64,000 nucleotides of DNA from Caulobacter sp. FWC26 (lineage in GTDB: Bacteria; Pseudomonadota; Alphaproteobacteria; Caulobacterales; Caulobacteraceae), in contig NZ_CP033875.1 of assembly GCF_002742645.2 (NCBI RefSeq), forward strand, positions 248,001-312,000, in the 5' to 3' direction. The notes under the pieces were generated by a model. The model did not search any database. It was not told where the DNA came from and was given only the letters and a program-made list of their open reading frames with translations. The translations under genes and the position numbers were made by a program. Shown one piece after another: positions 13,399 through 20,742 of this stretch; the stretch's first letter is position 1; each line of letters begins with the position of its first letter.

Positions 13399-13458
13399 GG
13401 CGCGGGGACGACCCCGCGCCTTTTTGCTTTGTCCGGGGACGACCCCGCCTTTTTGGAC
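13399..13458 (+). promoter_or_regulatory. Guanidine-II (mini-ykkC) riboswitch
   Basis: Two hairpins with identical ACGA loops: GGCGCGGGG-ACGA-CCCCGCGCC (13399-13420) and CGGGG-ACGA-CCCCG (13434-13447), separated by 13 bases. This is the known guanidine-II architecture, two short stems each capped by ACGR. The second stem ends shortly before the AAAGGG ribosome site at 13461-13466 and the GTG of a SugE/Gdx-type exporter, the expected target. Guanidinium binding would stabilise the hairpins and free the ribosome site. The first hairpin plus TTTTT could also act as terminator for the gene upstream. Confidence 0.85.
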
Positions 13459-13472
13459 AGAAAGGGCTCGTC

Positions 13473-13793
13473 GTGGCCTGGATTATTCTCTTCATCGCCG
13501 GCCTTTTCGAAGTGGGCTGGGCCGTGGGCCTGAAGTTCACCGAGGGTTTCACGCGGCCGATCCCGATCGTGCTGACGGCGATCAGTCTGGTGCTGTCGAT
13601 GGGGCTTCTGGGCTGGGCGGTGAAGAGCCTGCCGCTGGGCACCGCCTATGCGGTGTGGACCGGGATCGGGGCGGTCGGTACGGCTATCGTCGGGATCGTG
13701 GTGTTCAAGGAGCCGGCCACCGCCGCCCGGCTGGTCTGCTTTGGCCTGATTGTCGCCGGGATCCTCGGACTGAAACTGTTCAGTCCACAGTAG
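13473..13793 (+). CDS. gdx: Guanidinium exporter, SMR family (SugE type)
   Basis: A 106-residue four-helix small multidrug resistance protein of the SugE/Gdx subtype. It has the membrane glutamate in [13 protein letters not shown], the [11 protein letters not shown] loop, and [19 protein letters not shown] typical of guanidinium exporters rather than EmrE-type drug pumps. It works as an antiparallel dimer exchanging guanidinium for protons. The start is a GTG at 13473 with AAAGGG upstream. The guanidine-II riboswitch in its leader supports this subtype. Confidence 0.9.
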
Positions 13794-16497: not shown

Positions 16498-17682
16498 TCA
16501 ACGCTGCGCCAGGGCCGATGCGGGAGCTAGCTGAATCCCTCGCGCCTGCAGGCCGGCCGCCCAGGCGCGAACCTGGCTGATGGTCACCGGATAGGCGAAG
16601 CCCGAGCCCAGCGACTGTCCCCGCGCCGCCGCGCCGTTCTCCAGGGCGCGCAACTGGGCGTCGATGGCGCTGGCTGAGAGCTCGTCGTCGATCACCCGGT
16701 CGGCCGAGGCGCGCGGGATCGGACCCGCGCGGCGCGCGGCCAGGCCATCGTCGATGAAGGCCAAGCCCCGCGCCTTCAAGACGCCATTGAAGGTGTTCAT
16801 CGCCTGGTCGTTGTCGACGAAGCGCGCGCCCAGATAGTTGGAAAGGCCAAAATAGCCGGTGGCGCGCGACATCAGCCACTCCAGCTTGCGGACGGTGTCT
16901 TCGGGCCGGTTCGCGGCGATCAGGGTGTAGGGCCCCGGATCGTTGGCCGGATAGTCGGCCGGCTCCATCGGCGTCTCCAGCAGCACCTCGTGGCCGTGCG
17001 CGCGGGCCAGGTCGATCCAGCCTTGCAGGCCCTCGGCGTAGGGCGCGAAGGAAAGGGTGATCTCGCCCGGCAGGGTTTCGATCGCGGCGCGGGTGGTCTG
17101 GGCGTTCAGGCCCAGACCGCCGATGACGACCGACACCTTGGGCCGGCCGTTCGGCGTGAACGGGCGGGCATAGGCCTCGGCGGCCGTTCGGCCGTCTGCG
17201 GCGATGATCGGCAAGGGGGCTCCGCCCGGACCAGGCGCGGTCAGGCCGGCGATCGGCGCCTGCGGCAGGCCGGGGCCTTGCGGGATCGCAGGCGTGTTCT
17301 CCAGGCCCTCGGCGGCGGGGGGCTCGCCCTCGGCCTGCGCCATCAGGAGGCCAAAAGGCTTGGCCGAAAGACCCAGTTCGCCCGGGACCAGGCTGGCCTC
17401 GTGCGCGGGGTCGCCGCCTAGCGCTTCGCGCCAGCCTTCCGGAGCGTTCTTAGTGGCGCCGATCTTGGTCAGCTCCAGCCGAATCACCGGCGAGCCTGCG
17501 TGCGGATCGCTGGTGATCAGGACCAGCGTCGCCAGCGAGGAGAGAAACAGAAGCGCCGCGCCGCTGGCGCTGATGTAGGGGTTGCGGACCGCCGCCATGA
17601 ACTTGGCGCGCAGGTCGTTGGGCGCGCCCGAAACGGGCGCGGCGGCGGCGTAGGCGGGCTTTCGTGAGAACGAGACGGCCAT
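16498..17682 (-). CDS. Divergent polysaccharide deacetylase family protein
   Basis: A 394-residue protein with one N-terminal membrane segment (about residues 38-57), a Pro/Gly-rich linker, and a C-terminal YibQ/DUF610 divergent polysaccharide deacetylase domain. That domain begins PKVSVVIGGLGLN, continues with GEITLSFAPYAEG and HEVLLETPMEP, and ends with the RVIDDELSASAIDAQL region. Members act in the periplasm, often next to ctpA and envC genes. Here those genes lie further along the same strand but are separated by the TonB receptor insertion. Confidence 0.88.
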   Translation of the reverse strand: MAVSFSRKPAYAAAAPVSGAPNDLRAKFMAAVRNPYISASGAALLFLSSLATLVLITSDPHAGSPVIRLELTKIGATKNAPEGWREALGGDPAHEASLVPGELGLSAKPFGLLMAQAEGEPPAAEGLENTPAIPQGPGLPQAPIAGLTAPGPGGAPLPIIAADGRTAAEAYARPFTPNGRPKVSVVIGGLGLNAQTTRAAIETLPGEITLSFAPYAEGLQGWIDLARAHGHEVLLETPMEPADYPANDPGPYTLIAANRPEDTVRKLEWLMSRATGYFGLSNYLGARFVDNDQAMNTFNGVLKARGLAFIDDGLAARRAGPIPRASADRVIDDELSASAIDAQLRALENGAAARGQSLGSGFAYPVTISQVRAWAAGLQARGIQLAPASALAQR

Positions 17683-17880
17683 GACGCCCTGATCCTAGGG
17701 GCAAGCTTCGAAGATATGGTTAACGAGATGTGTCCGGCCGCGATCCGGGGCGCGACGCGGCGACGCGGGCGCCACTGAAATCAGCGTTTTCTGCAACGGA
17801 CACAGGCGCACGATGGAATGTGTCGGAAAGTCGTCCCTGGGCGGATTGACGATGTACGCGCCGACTTTGTTCCCTGAAGG
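17683..17880. promoter_or_regulatory. Intergenic region with TTGACG promoter-like box ahead of the glycine riboswitch
   Basis: Noncoding gap between the divergent deacetylase gene and the riboswitch. TTGACG at 17846-17851 matches the Caulobacter housekeeping -35 consensus and is correctly placed to start a transcript just before 17881. I see no clear -10 match, so the promoter is tentative. Confidence 0.4.
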
Positions 17881-18066
17881 CCTCTCGCGGGAGAGACCGG
17901 GCCCCGGCCCGGCGCTGAAGGCGAAACCGCCCCGGAAACGCTCAAGCAAAAGGACCGCGCGAGGCGTTGAACGCTGGAAAGCAGGGCGCTTGCCGCTCTC
18001 GCCGAAGGAGCAAGGTGCGTCGACCGCAGCGTCGGCCGCCGAATCTCTCAGGCGCCAAGGACAGCG
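17881..18066 (+). promoter_or_regulatory. Tandem glycine riboswitch (two aptamers)
   Basis: Aptamer 1 (17881-17964) has closing stem CCTC/GAGG plus CGCGG/CCGCG, the GGGAGAGA segment, GCTGAAGGCGAAA, and AAACGCTCAAGCAAAAGGACCG. Aptamer 2 (17972-18066) has closing stem CGCTG/CAGCG, CTCGCCGAAGGAGCAA and GAATCTCTCAGGCGCCAAGG followed by ACAG. These are the conserved glycine-aptamer blocks in the right order, twice, with a short linker. It is on the plus strand, and the only downstream gene on that strand is the TonB-dependent receptor 285 bases away. Confidence 0.9.
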
Positions 18067-18108
18067 GGGGCAGAAGGCGTGTCGTTTCCGACCCGTCCAA
18101 GCCCCTGT
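18064..18108 (+). promoter_or_regulatory. Candidate expression platform of the glycine riboswitch
   Basis: GCGGGGGC (18064-18071) can pair with GCCCCTGT (18101-18108), eight pairs including two G-U, around an inner GTCG-TTTC-CGAC hairpin (18081-18092). This stem uses bases 18064-18066 that also close aptamer 2, so the two folds exclude each other. There is no T tract after it, so it is not a classical terminator. Confidence 0.45.
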
Positions 18109-18252
18109 GTGTGATCGCGGAAGACTAACCTCAAAAGCACACCAAATGACGCTTTCAAACGCGATCGCCCGATGGCTTTCGCGCTGCTTCTGTTCGATAT
18201 ACTTCAGTAAAACTGGCTATGACTGAAAATCAAACAGATGTTGTGCAAGGTT

Positions 18253-18282
18253 TTGACGCTGAGATTTAGTTGATACTATTTC
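18253..18282 (+). promoter_or_regulatory. Possible internal promoter of the TonB receptor gene
   Basis: TTGACGC at 18253-18259 matches the Caulobacter sigma-73 -35 box; ACTATTTC at 18275-18282 partly matches the GCTANAWC -10 box, with a spacer of 15, slightly long. The surrounding 18180-18310 stretch is clearly more AT-rich than the genome. If real, the receptor could be transcribed independently of the riboswitch. Confidence 0.35.
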
Positions 18283-18351
18283 CATGCTTGAGGGTTTACC
18301 TGGATTTTCCCCCTTGTGACGCTGAGCGGGTCAACATGATTGGGGATAGTC

Positions 18352-20742
18352 ATGACCTCTCGCAAACCCACGCGCGACGCCGTCCGGCTCAAGGCGCTTC
18401 TTCTCGCGGCTTCCTTGTTGGGCGGTGCGACCAGCGCCTACGCCCAGCAGTCGGAGAAGCCCGCCGAACTGGAAACCGTCGTGGTGACCGGCAAGCGTCT
18501 GTCTGAGGCCAGCGTCGCCATCGGCACGGATCACGCGACGGCGACCGTTTCGATCACGCGCGAGGCCCTGCTGTCGGCCCCGGCCGGCATCACCGGCTTG
18601 AAGATGCTGGAGAGCCTGCCGGGCTTCAACGTCCAGGCCAACGATGCGCTGGGCATGTACGAGTTCGGCAACTCGGTGTCGGTGCGGGCCTTCAACTTCC
18701 AGCAGATCGGCTTCTTGCTCGACAACATCCCGATGGGGCGCAGCGATCAGTTCGGCGGCAGCCCGATCTATCGCTATGTCGACAACGAGAATCTGCTGCG
18801 GGTGACCGCTTCCGCCGGCGCGGGCGATGTCGCCCTGCCCAGCTATGCGTCGCTGGGTCCGATCGTCGACTACTTCACCCAGGCGCCGTCCGAAGAGGCC
18901 GGGGGCGCGATCAGCCAGACCTTCGGCAGCGACGACCTGCGCCGCACCTTCCTGCGGCTCGAGATGGGCAAGGTGGGGCCGCTCTCGGGCTATGTCAGCG
19001 GATCTTGGATCAAGGGCGACCTGTGGCGCGGCCCGGGCACGATCGACCGCAAGCATTACGAGGGCAAGCTGAAGTACGACCTCCCCAACGGCGGGGACAT
19101 CACCTTCCAGACCGTCCACAACGACTATTTCGACTATGACAGCCCGTCGATCACCAAGGCGCAGTACGCCGGGACGGCCGGTGACGTCTTCGGGCGGAAG
19201 GGCCGTTATTTCGCCTATCTGGGCGTGGTGCCGACCTCGGTTCCGTTCGGAACGCCGCTGTCGATCCCGACGGGCAGCCTGCCCGAGGCTGCGGCCGGCG
19301 TGCCGTACTCCAACGCCAATTACGCCCAGTACTACAAGTTCGCGATCAATAAGCGGAAGGACCACCTGTATGGCCTGACGCTGAACACGCCGATCACCGA
19401 CAATCTCGACCTGACCACGACGGCCTATTACGAAGACAAGGGCGGGTACGGGGTGTCGCCGGAGGCCTACGCCACCTCACTGGCCAGCCATAACGCCGAG
19501 CGCCTGATCGTGCCGGGCCTGTTCGCGCCCAAAGGCATCCAGTACGGCCTGTCGGGCATCGACGGGATCCGCCAGGGCGTAACCGCCAAGCTGGCCTGGC
19601 ATGTCGGCTTCAATAAGATCGAGGCCGGCGTCTGGCTGGAGAACGACGACTATCATCGTACCCAGAACCGCTACAACGTCGAGAACGGCAACCCGGACGG
19701 CAAGCCGCTCTTCAACGAGCGCGTCCACGCCCAGCGTGACTATAAATCCCTACGGGAGACCACGCAGTTCTTCCTGAAGGACACCCTGACGCTGATGGAT
19801 TCCAAGCTGAAGCTGGAACTTGGCTTCAAGGCGACTGACATCGATTACAAGATCTCGGGCTATCGCAATCCGAACGACTATATCAACAGCCGCCGCCCGC
19901 TGCTGAAGGACAACTGGAAGGACAGCTTCCTGCCCCAGGTGGGCGCGGTCTACAGCGTGACCGGCCGCGACCAGATCTTCGCCTCGTACTCGGAGAACAT
20001 GGCCCTGCCGCGCGGCGCGGACGACATCTTCTCGGCCGCCAGCCCGACCGTCGCGGGGCCCGACCCCGAGACCTCGACCAACTGGGAGCTTGGCTATCGC
20101 GCCAACCACAAGACGTTCAACGCCTCGATCGTGGCCTATCAGACCGAGTTCAAGAACCGGCTCCAATCCTTCGCCTCGCCAGTGCCAGGCGGTGGCGGGA
20201 TCACCGAGACCTTCTTCCAGAACGTCGGGGCGGTGAAGGCCAAGGGCGTCGAGTTCAGCGGCCAGTGGAAGCCCGAACTCCTTGCCGGCAAGGCGTACTT
20301 CAACGCCAACGTCTCCTACAACAGCGCCAAGTTCCAGGATGACGTCCTGAACTACCGCGCCAGCACCACGGCGGCGGCCACGACCCTGGCCATCGCCGGC
20401 AAGAAGGTGCCGGACTTCCCCGACTGGGTGATCCAGGGCGGTGTCACGGTCGAACCGTTCGACGGCCTGTTGATGAACGTCTCGGCCCGCCACCTGGAAA
20501 GCCGCTTCACAAACTTCATCAACAGCGAAAGCGTCGGCGGCTACACCATCGTCAACGCCTACATCGACATCGGCGACGGCTTCTCGGCCGGGCCGTTCAG
20601 CCAGATCAAGGCGCGGGTCAACATCGATAACCTGTTCGACAAGGACTATCTGGGCACCATCAACACGACGGTGAACACCGCCGCCAGCTTCCGTCCGGCG
20701 CCGCCCAGAACGGTGCAGTTCACGATCTCTGCTGACTTCTAG
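18352..20742 (+). CDS. TonB-dependent receptor
   Basis: A 796-residue outer-membrane receptor. The signal peptide ends at SAYAQ; ELETVVVTGKR is a TonB-box-like start. A plug domain (GLKMLESLPGFNVQANDALG, then SVSVRAFNFQQIGFLLDNIP) follows, and then the 22-strand barrel ends in RVNIDNLFDKDYLGT and a C-terminal TVQFTISADF with terminal Phe. The ATG at 18352 has GGGGA just upstream; a TTG four codons earlier is less likely. It is the only plus-strand gene in an otherwise minus-strand block. Its substrate is unknown, though the upstream glycine riboswitch hints at glycine, glycyl peptides or a related nitrogen source. Confidence 0.92.
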   Translation: MTSRKPTRDAVRLKALLLAASLLGGATSAYAQQSEKPAELETVVVTGKRLSEASVAIGTDHATATVSITREALLSAPAGITGLKMLESLPGFNVQANDALGMYEFGNSVSVRAFNFQQIGFLLDNIPMGRSDQFGGSPIYRYVDNENLLRVTASAGAGDVALPSYASLGPIVDYFTQAPSEEAGGAISQTFGSDDLRRTFLRLEMGKVGPLSGYVSGSWIKGDLWRGPGTIDRKHYEGKLKYDLPNGGDITFQTVHNDYFDYDSPSITKAQYAGTAGDVFGRKGRYFAYLGVVPTSVPFGTPLSIPTGSLPEAAAGVPYSNANYAQYYKFAINKRKDHLYGLTLNTPITDNLDLTTTAYYEDKGGYGVSPEAYATSLASHNAERLIVPGLFAPKGIQYGLSGIDGIRQGVTAKLAWHVGFNKIEAGVWLENDDYHRTQNRYNVENGNPDGKPLFNERVHAQRDYKSLRETTQFFLKDTLTLMDSKLKLELGFKATDIDYKISGYRNPNDYINSRRPLLKDNWKDSFLPQVGAVYSVTGRDQIFASYSENMALPRGADDIFSAASPTVAGPDPETSTNWELGYRANHKTFNASIVAYQTEFKNRLQSFASPVPGGGGITETFFQNVGAVKAKGVEFSGQWKPELLAGKAYFNANVSYNSAKFQDDVLNYRASTTAAATTLAIAGKKVPDFPDWVIQGGVTVEPFDGLLMNVSARHLESRFTNFINSESVGGYTIVNAYIDIGDGFSAGPFSQIKARVNIDNLFDKDYLGTINTTVNTAASFRPAPPRTVQFTISADF

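Follow-up and report, generated by a model that had tools for sequence, protein, structure and literature searches.

In Caulobacter sp. FWC26, a tandem glycine riboswitch with a putative promoter of its own appears, on balance, to control in cis the gene of a TonB-dependent receptor, here called T1, at a locus that is conserved in Caulobacter and that in many relatives joins T1 with an M19 membrane dipeptidase. The best reading of the sequence comparisons is a glycine-controlled receptor whose candidate cargo is glycine-containing peptides or peptide-like compounds, and the switch-receptor unit would probably control the scavenging of such glycine-containing peptides. The window is the whole stretch of DNA that was analysed, 64,000 nucleotides in length, and all coordinates refer to it unless another locus is named. 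The features of the locus are as follows.

17846..17850, + strand: -35-like TTGAC of the putative promoter belonging to the riboswitch, at conserved spacing to the aptamer-1 core
17878..17967, + strand: glycine aptamer 1 (RF00504, 61.7 bits)
17967..18074, + strand: glycine aptamer 2 (RF00504, 54.5 bits; own covariance model R1, 73.4 bits at 17969-18070)
18059..18112, + strand: anti-P1 hairpin from predicted folds, in which the 3' strand of aptamer-2 P1 together with GGGGGC pairs with a foot at 18101-18112
18076..18097, + strand: helix A, within the anti-P1 hairpin (7 pairs, 2 changed on both sides)
18111..18128, + strand: putative micro-ORF of 5 codons, GTG ATC GCG GAA GAC TAA (start and in-frame stop in 19/19 T1 leaders)
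18160..18183, + strand: helix B, a conserved covarying hairpin (8 pairs, 4 changed on both sides)
18220..18351, + strand: module P, roughly the closing section of the leader, containing TTTACC at 18295-18300 and a Shine-Dalgarno sequence (SD) GGGGA at 18342-18346, also found in riboswitch-less close relatives
18352..20742, + strand: T1, TonB-dependent receptor of 796 aa (PF00593; conserved start)

The riboswitch and the receptor gene

Both aptamers were recognised by the RF00504 covariance model, aptamer 1 at 61.7 bits (gathering score 32; E 2.4e-10 with the whole window scanned) and aptamer 2 at 54.5 bits against the same cut-off (E 1.2e-10, in a stretch scanned without aptamer 1), and they lie end to end at 17878-18074 in the tandem arrangement typical of the class. 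Because overlapping matches of one clan are dropped in whole scans, aptamer 2 is not listed there beside aptamer 1. Model R1, which was built from the leaders of gcvT and of a second receptor gene, T2, and contains no T1 sequence, also placed aptamer 2 at 17969-18070 (73.4 bits, E 5.5e-14). A degenerate aptamer 2 was ruled out by its score once it was scanned without aptamer 1, and the claim of the earlier note that both glycine aptamers are complete was borne out by the RF00504 run that it had proposed over the riboswitch region, with both found above the cut-off, as well as by the independent model for aptamer 2. Within the glycine riboswitch class the element is an ordinary one, and the genome of the window holds a second tandem glycine riboswitch, before gcvT and 81 kb away. 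Two differences from gcvT leaders recur in 19/19 T1 leaders, namely a U-A pair in place of C-G within P3 of aptamer 1 and, close by, an A in place of C, from which it might be supposed that the T1-class aptamers have changed their ligand and no longer sense glycine; this is highly improbable, given that both aptamers score well over the RF00504 cut-off, that the P3 exchange is compensatory, and that T1 and gcvT leaders have the same core in aptamer 2.

Ahead of the aptamers, a TTGA[CT] box stands 39-42 nt before the aptamer-1 core in 19/19 T1 leaders, 10/10 gcvT leaders and all seven T2 leaders that could be scored (4 of the 11 T2 leaders being unscorable). The box positions of T1 leaders run from -39 to -41 in 19/19, and a narrower tally range counts 13/19. 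An E. coli-type promoter scan did not catch the TTGAC at 17846..17850.

The gene downstream on the same strand is a TonB receptor, as the earlier note had stated: the beta-barrel domain PF00593 was matched at 138.8 bits (cut-off 27) and the Plug domain PF07715 at 23.5 bits, just below its cut-off of 23.9, and the next gene after T1, for an S41 peptidase, lies on the opposite strand. The start of T1 was placed at ATG 18352 because GGGGATAGTC-ATG is conserved, which rules out the start at TTG 18340 called by the ORF tool. The named isolate nearest by T1 is C. vibrioides DSM 9893, at 93% identity, and a metagenome-assembled genome (MAG) reaches 98%. In the laboratory strain of C. vibrioides T1 is probably CCNA_03549, judging by its neighbours CCNA_03545 (rsfS) and CCNA_03547 (LdpF). 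At E 0.001 the T1 profile retrieved no solved structure, and the NCBIfam siderophore and B12 receptor models scored far below cut-off (best 82.7 vs 223.5 bits), a siderophore receptor subfamily being the nearest; homology therefore leaves the ligand of T1 unnamed.

Conservation of the riboswitch-receptor unit

The riboswitch was present in 61/61 Caulobacter genomes sampled, and among the loci listed for these genomes the target gene was gcvT in 60, T1 in 20, T2 in 11 and any other gene in 0. T2, about 900 aa long, is a TonB receptor distinct from T1, with which it has no useful local similarity. The upstream neighbours of the 19 switch-T1 loci fall into six clusters and the downstream neighbours into seven, so the unit of switch and T1 travels as one. 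Within the T1 clade, to which genomes were assigned by identity, by their rows in the tree and by agreement of contig coordinates, the switch is kept in 22 of the 26 scorable genomes; in genomes matching L082, L083, L084 and L118, of the same clade, it is absent and the receptor is kept. Locus L091, on the same contig as G039, is labelled 'no' in the T1 tree, and its contig ends before the switch position. The label 'riboswitch' needs 3 changes on the T1 protein tree (51 rows), compared with 13.1 when labels are shuffled, a pattern that fits one gain of the switch and two losses. The comparison of synteny in other Caulobacter genomes, which the earlier note had suggested, thus found a recurring unit, and because the pair moves through six neighbourhoods and is kept in most of the scorable clade genomes, the assignment of the riboswitch to the T1 receptor is well supported on comparative grounds.

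A different origin of the T1 transcript has to be weighed against this assignment. Module P (about 130 nt, with TTTACC and the SD) is kept in L082 and L083 and partly in L084, all without the riboswitch, and because it persists in such relatives a second promoter may lie between the switch and T1. The RNA of the riboswitch would then end early and T1 would be read from the promoter in module P, while the shared neighbourhood would have another cause, such as a regulatory RNA formed by termination; the base composition of 18129-18351 (46% G+C in a window of 67% G+C) is of a kind often seen in promoter regions. This arrangement is nevertheless judged quite unlikely, since the unit is intact across the six neighbourhoods and the 22/26 clade genomes and the -35-like box holds a fixed place before the aptamers, whereas inspection of module P by eye revealed no promoter as conserved as that box. 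Control of T1 by the riboswitch in cis is therefore retained as the preferred reading. A palindrome-like TGTTCATAWATTGAAC(A), perhaps an operator or second promoter element, was noted some 130 nt ahead of the T1 start in L082 and also in T1 leaders such as L055 and L052; it is degenerate in the lineage of the window.

The combination of riboswitch, T2 and an S9-family peptidase was also found in two genomes of another genus, while in a third (G140) the contig ends before the S9 position behind T2; the T2 riboswitch counts are given without G127. A glycine riboswitch of G079 (L207, 344-1933) precedes an L-serine dehydratase gene (PF03313, PF03315), a known kind of target. In Stenotrophomonas tumulicola (L107), a T1 relative with 64% identity has immediately behind it another ORF that by eye resembles a TonB receptor.

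Structure of the leader and sign of control

The gcvT leaders provide the reference for the output of the switch. gcvT begins with GTG TCC in 10/10 leaders, and in predicted folds GGACA of aptamer 2 pairs with UGUCC of the gcvT start in nine of them; in the tenth (L072) the partner is a TTG TCC that lies in frame and 15 nt upstream. In the predicted folds of T1 leaders, the foot bound by the corresponding anti-P1 strand lies 47-69 nt downstream (19/19), and 3-7 of the 8 nt GGACAGCG take part in the pairing. When the whole leader of the window was folded, P1 came first if the RNA ended at 18130 and the anti-P1 hairpin came first if it ended at 18190 or 18351, a length-dependent choice that would be expected of a switch; the exact partner of the P1 strand varies with the length folded. 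The anti-P1 hairpin is drawn from single-sequence folds, for which T1 energies gave z from -0.3 to -3.7 relative to shuffles, and RNAalifold did not pick it from the leader alignment. Helices A and B were counted in 18 of the 19 leaders, with L052 left out: 270/270 cells are paired, and 25 are changed on both sides compared with 8.1 in shuffles, although one of the five measures of covariation (further pair types, 431/500) was not above shuffles. A simple scan of 17650-18400 returned 0 intrinsic terminators, and no clear U-run was seen by eye at helix A or B. A weak match to SIB_RNA at 18253-18369 (22 bits vs 56) was rejected.

In gcvT the start codon of the controlled gene is predicted to lie inside the anti-P1 hairpin, whereas the ATG of T1 lies about 240 nt beyond it, the SD of T1 about 230 nt beyond it, and the whole distance from aptamer 2 to T1 is about 280 nt. 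At or next to the foot of the hairpin begins instead a putative micro-ORF of 2-5 codons, about 220 nt upstream of T1, and so it stands where gcvT leaders have the start codon. Variants in other leaders read ATG CGG ATT TAG, ATG CGA AAC TGA and ATG AYC TGA, and TGA, TAA and TAG are all used as stops among the 19 T1 leaders. The recurrence in 19/19 is to be read with the facts that the definition of the micro-ORF was set after the sequences had been seen, that shuffled sequences satisfy it in 0.3-10% of cases per leader, and that the 19 leaders are not independent. No SD was seen by eye before the micro-ORF. In the first 100 nt after it, C exceeds G in 15/19 leaders, the exceptions being L058, L063, L034 and L062.

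Since T1 keeps a hairpin homologous to the anti-P1 hairpin of gcvT, which is predicted to cover a start codon there, glycine most likely turns T1 ON along with glycine cleavage, as far as these fold models indicate. The opposite sign at the same locus, in which glycine would turn T1 OFF and so spare uptake when glycine is plentiful, is regarded as somewhat unlikely. Feedback repression is a usual logic for uptake genes, and at T1 itself neither a terminator nor a start-codon block was found from which the sign could be read. Glycine transporter genes are reported under glycine riboswitches in the excerpts of PMC3766115, which also agrees with an OFF switch. The anti-P1 hairpin that T1 and gcvT leaders have in common nonetheless points to ON, which is the sign adopted below.

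Neighbouring hydrolases and candidate cargo

In 12 of the 19 switch-T1 loci the gene that follows T1 encodes an M19 membrane dipeptidase (PF01244 at 317 bits in L058, cut-off 26). Seven sequences of linked M19s were aligned and keep the HxD, E, H and H positions of the metal-ligand motifs, and the linked M19 has a signal-peptide-like start. A close orthologue (at least 84%) occurs in 14 of 75 Caulobacter genomes, always directly behind T1 (14/14) at a distance of 60-96 bp; more distant matches in G199 (62%) and G027 (59%) are outside these 14, and neither is beside T1 by coordinates. Caulobacter sp. Root655 (L089) is one strain that carries both T1 and the M19 gene. Among named T1 relatives without the riboswitch, an M19 lies behind T1 in 6/34, at 34-63% identity, and none lies there in 28/34. 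The organisms with such a pair are Phenylobacterium, Lysobacterales, a Caulobacterales MAG and an alphaproteobacterial MAG, and the pairing of T1 with M19 is therefore older than the switch or independent of it. The nearest solved structure to the M19 is dipeptidase 2rag, with renal dipeptidases and GliJ also among the matches; such dipeptidases release glycine from Cys-Gly and other dipeptides.

The linked dipeptidase is missing in the lineage of the window and in 7/19 switch-T1 loci. The S41 gene directly follows T1 in the window, and in L058 and L050, which share the same neighbourhood, the M19 gene lies between T1 and S41; the genome of the window has one other M19 elsewhere, 50% identical. 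Hydrolases also accompany the other receptors linked to the riboswitch: an S9-family peptidase is found behind T2 in 11/11 loci, and in a third genus (G141; L211, 348-5461) a glycine riboswitch is followed by a third distinct TonB receptor of 858 aa and then by a penicillin-amidase family enzyme.

The earlier note had proposed uptake of glycine, glycyl peptides or a glycine-rich compound across the outer membrane. The first of these ligands is unlikely for T1, because free glycine needs no TonB receptor. A glycyl peptide is favoured because M19 stands behind T1 in relatives and a peptidase or an amidase stands behind the other two riboswitch-linked receptors, so that the proposal was supported in part. 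The cargo might alternatively be a non-peptide from which glycine arises by an indirect route; an acyl-glycine, a siderophore that bears glycine and other amides are examples. The penicillin-amidase family enzyme behind the third receptor, seen in one genome of a related genus, means that amide bonds other than those of dipeptides may be the theme, and the siderophore receptor subfamily is the nearest NCBIfam model for T1, far below cut-off as it is; but the enzyme linked to T1 itself is M19, both in the 14/14 genomes with a close orthologue and in the 6/34 relatives without riboswitch, and a non-peptide cargo is accordingly considered unlikely.

Proposed mechanism and its wider form

With glycine-containing peptides as the preferred cargo and ON as the preferred sign, the following course may be proposed. 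T1 would import a small glycine-containing peptide or peptide-like compound, from which a periplasmic dipeptidase (the M19 behind T1 in relatives, perhaps the unlinked M19 in the genome of the window) would free glycine. Glycine in the cytosol would bind the aptamers and close P1 of aptamer 2, and the competing anti-P1 hairpin would open, as is inferred for gcvT in the same genus. In gcvT the open hairpin would free the start codon; at T1 it would free the micro-ORF, and ribosomes loading there could shield the next stretch from Rho or change helix B, with the result that the polymerase reaches T1. T1 and glycine cleavage would in this way be induced together when peptides supply glycine. Both aptamers, the promoter-like box, the conserved linkage, the peptidase neighbours and the conserved leader helices are observed parts of this scheme, in which read-through to T1, the ON sign, translation of the micro-ORF, the action of Rho, the peptide class of the ligand and the crossing of 240 nt by the signal are the putative steps.

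A wider form of this proposal is tentative and, taken whole, doubtful: glycine riboswitches of Caulobacteraceae may run a peptide-scavenging regulon of at least three distinct TonB receptors, in which T1 is paired with an M19 dipeptidase, T2 with an S9 peptidase and the L211 type with a penicillin-amidase family enzyme, and at T1 the output stage may in addition be a new one, copied from the gcvT-type translational switch but with its target reduced to an ORF of 2-5 codons, so that glycine gates ribosome loading and through it Rho-dependent read-through.

Relation to known systems

The T1 riboswitch resembles RF00504 riboswitches before gcvT in its two aptamers, its core, the spacing of its -35-like box and the anti-P1 use of GGACAGCGGGGG; it differs in having a TonB receptor as its target, a micro-ORF rather than the start codon of the gene at the anti-P1 foot, and a leader of about 280 nt after aptamer 2. 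What a cobalamin riboswitch senses is the vitamin being transported, or a cofactor form of it, whereas the amino acid sensed at T1 would probably be a breakdown product of the cargo. Cobalamin riboswitches before TonB receptors, as given in excerpts of PMC5756330 and PMC5770649, are likewise riboswitches that control an outer-membrane receptor of this type.

According to the excerpts of PMC13104608, the tandem glycine riboswitch of N. gonorrhoeae gcvT acts on translation, with aptamer 2 held in an inhibitory structure without glycine and expression rising with glycine, which is the same logic as that inferred here for gcvT of Caulobacter; the gonococcal switch hides the ribosome-binding site of its own gene, whereas the SD of T1 is about 230 nt past the hairpin. 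The nearest published model found for a micro-ORF output is the Mbox upstream of pe20 in M. tuberculosis, a riboswitch that, in the excerpts of PMC12810186, works through a short upstream ORF and termination by Rho; its ligand and organism differ, and at T1 both translation of the micro-ORF and the part of Rho are putative.

The targets of glycine riboswitches listed in the excerpts of PMC3766115 and PMC2211319 are glycine metabolism, glycine transporters, serine metabolism, malate synthase and COG4198; transporters are thus included for the same riboswitch, and a TonB receptor or peptidase is not named in those excerpts. Open-licence literature, to the extent that its text came up in the searches, contained no link of glycine riboswitches to TonB receptors or dipeptidases, and an earlier entry is possible in regulon databases, which lie outside that scope. 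Where the retrieved text of open-licence papers held both 'glycine riboswitch' and 'TonB', TonB receptors were tied to cobalamin riboswitches or to none. For C. crescentus, PMC4117421 reportedly tabulates four 5' UTRs with riboswitch elements. As far as these searches reached, the target, its recurrence with peptidases and perhaps the output stage of the leader look new.

Caulobacter genomes encode many TonB receptors of unknown ligand, and a receptor that has an amino-acid riboswitch ahead of its gene and a dipeptidase gene next to it offers a direct, testable guess at its cargo. Relative to the papers searched, the reach of the glycine riboswitch would be widened from cytosolic metabolism and inner-membrane carriers to nutrient capture at the outer membrane, and if the micro-ORF stage is true, a start-codon switch could be reused for a distant gene. 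The window holds one further riboswitch, a Guanidine-II element (RF01068, 54.3 bits) that lies 25 nt before a small multidrug resistance gene (PF00893, 98 bits) at 13400-13793 on the + strand, a well-known and ordinary pairing.
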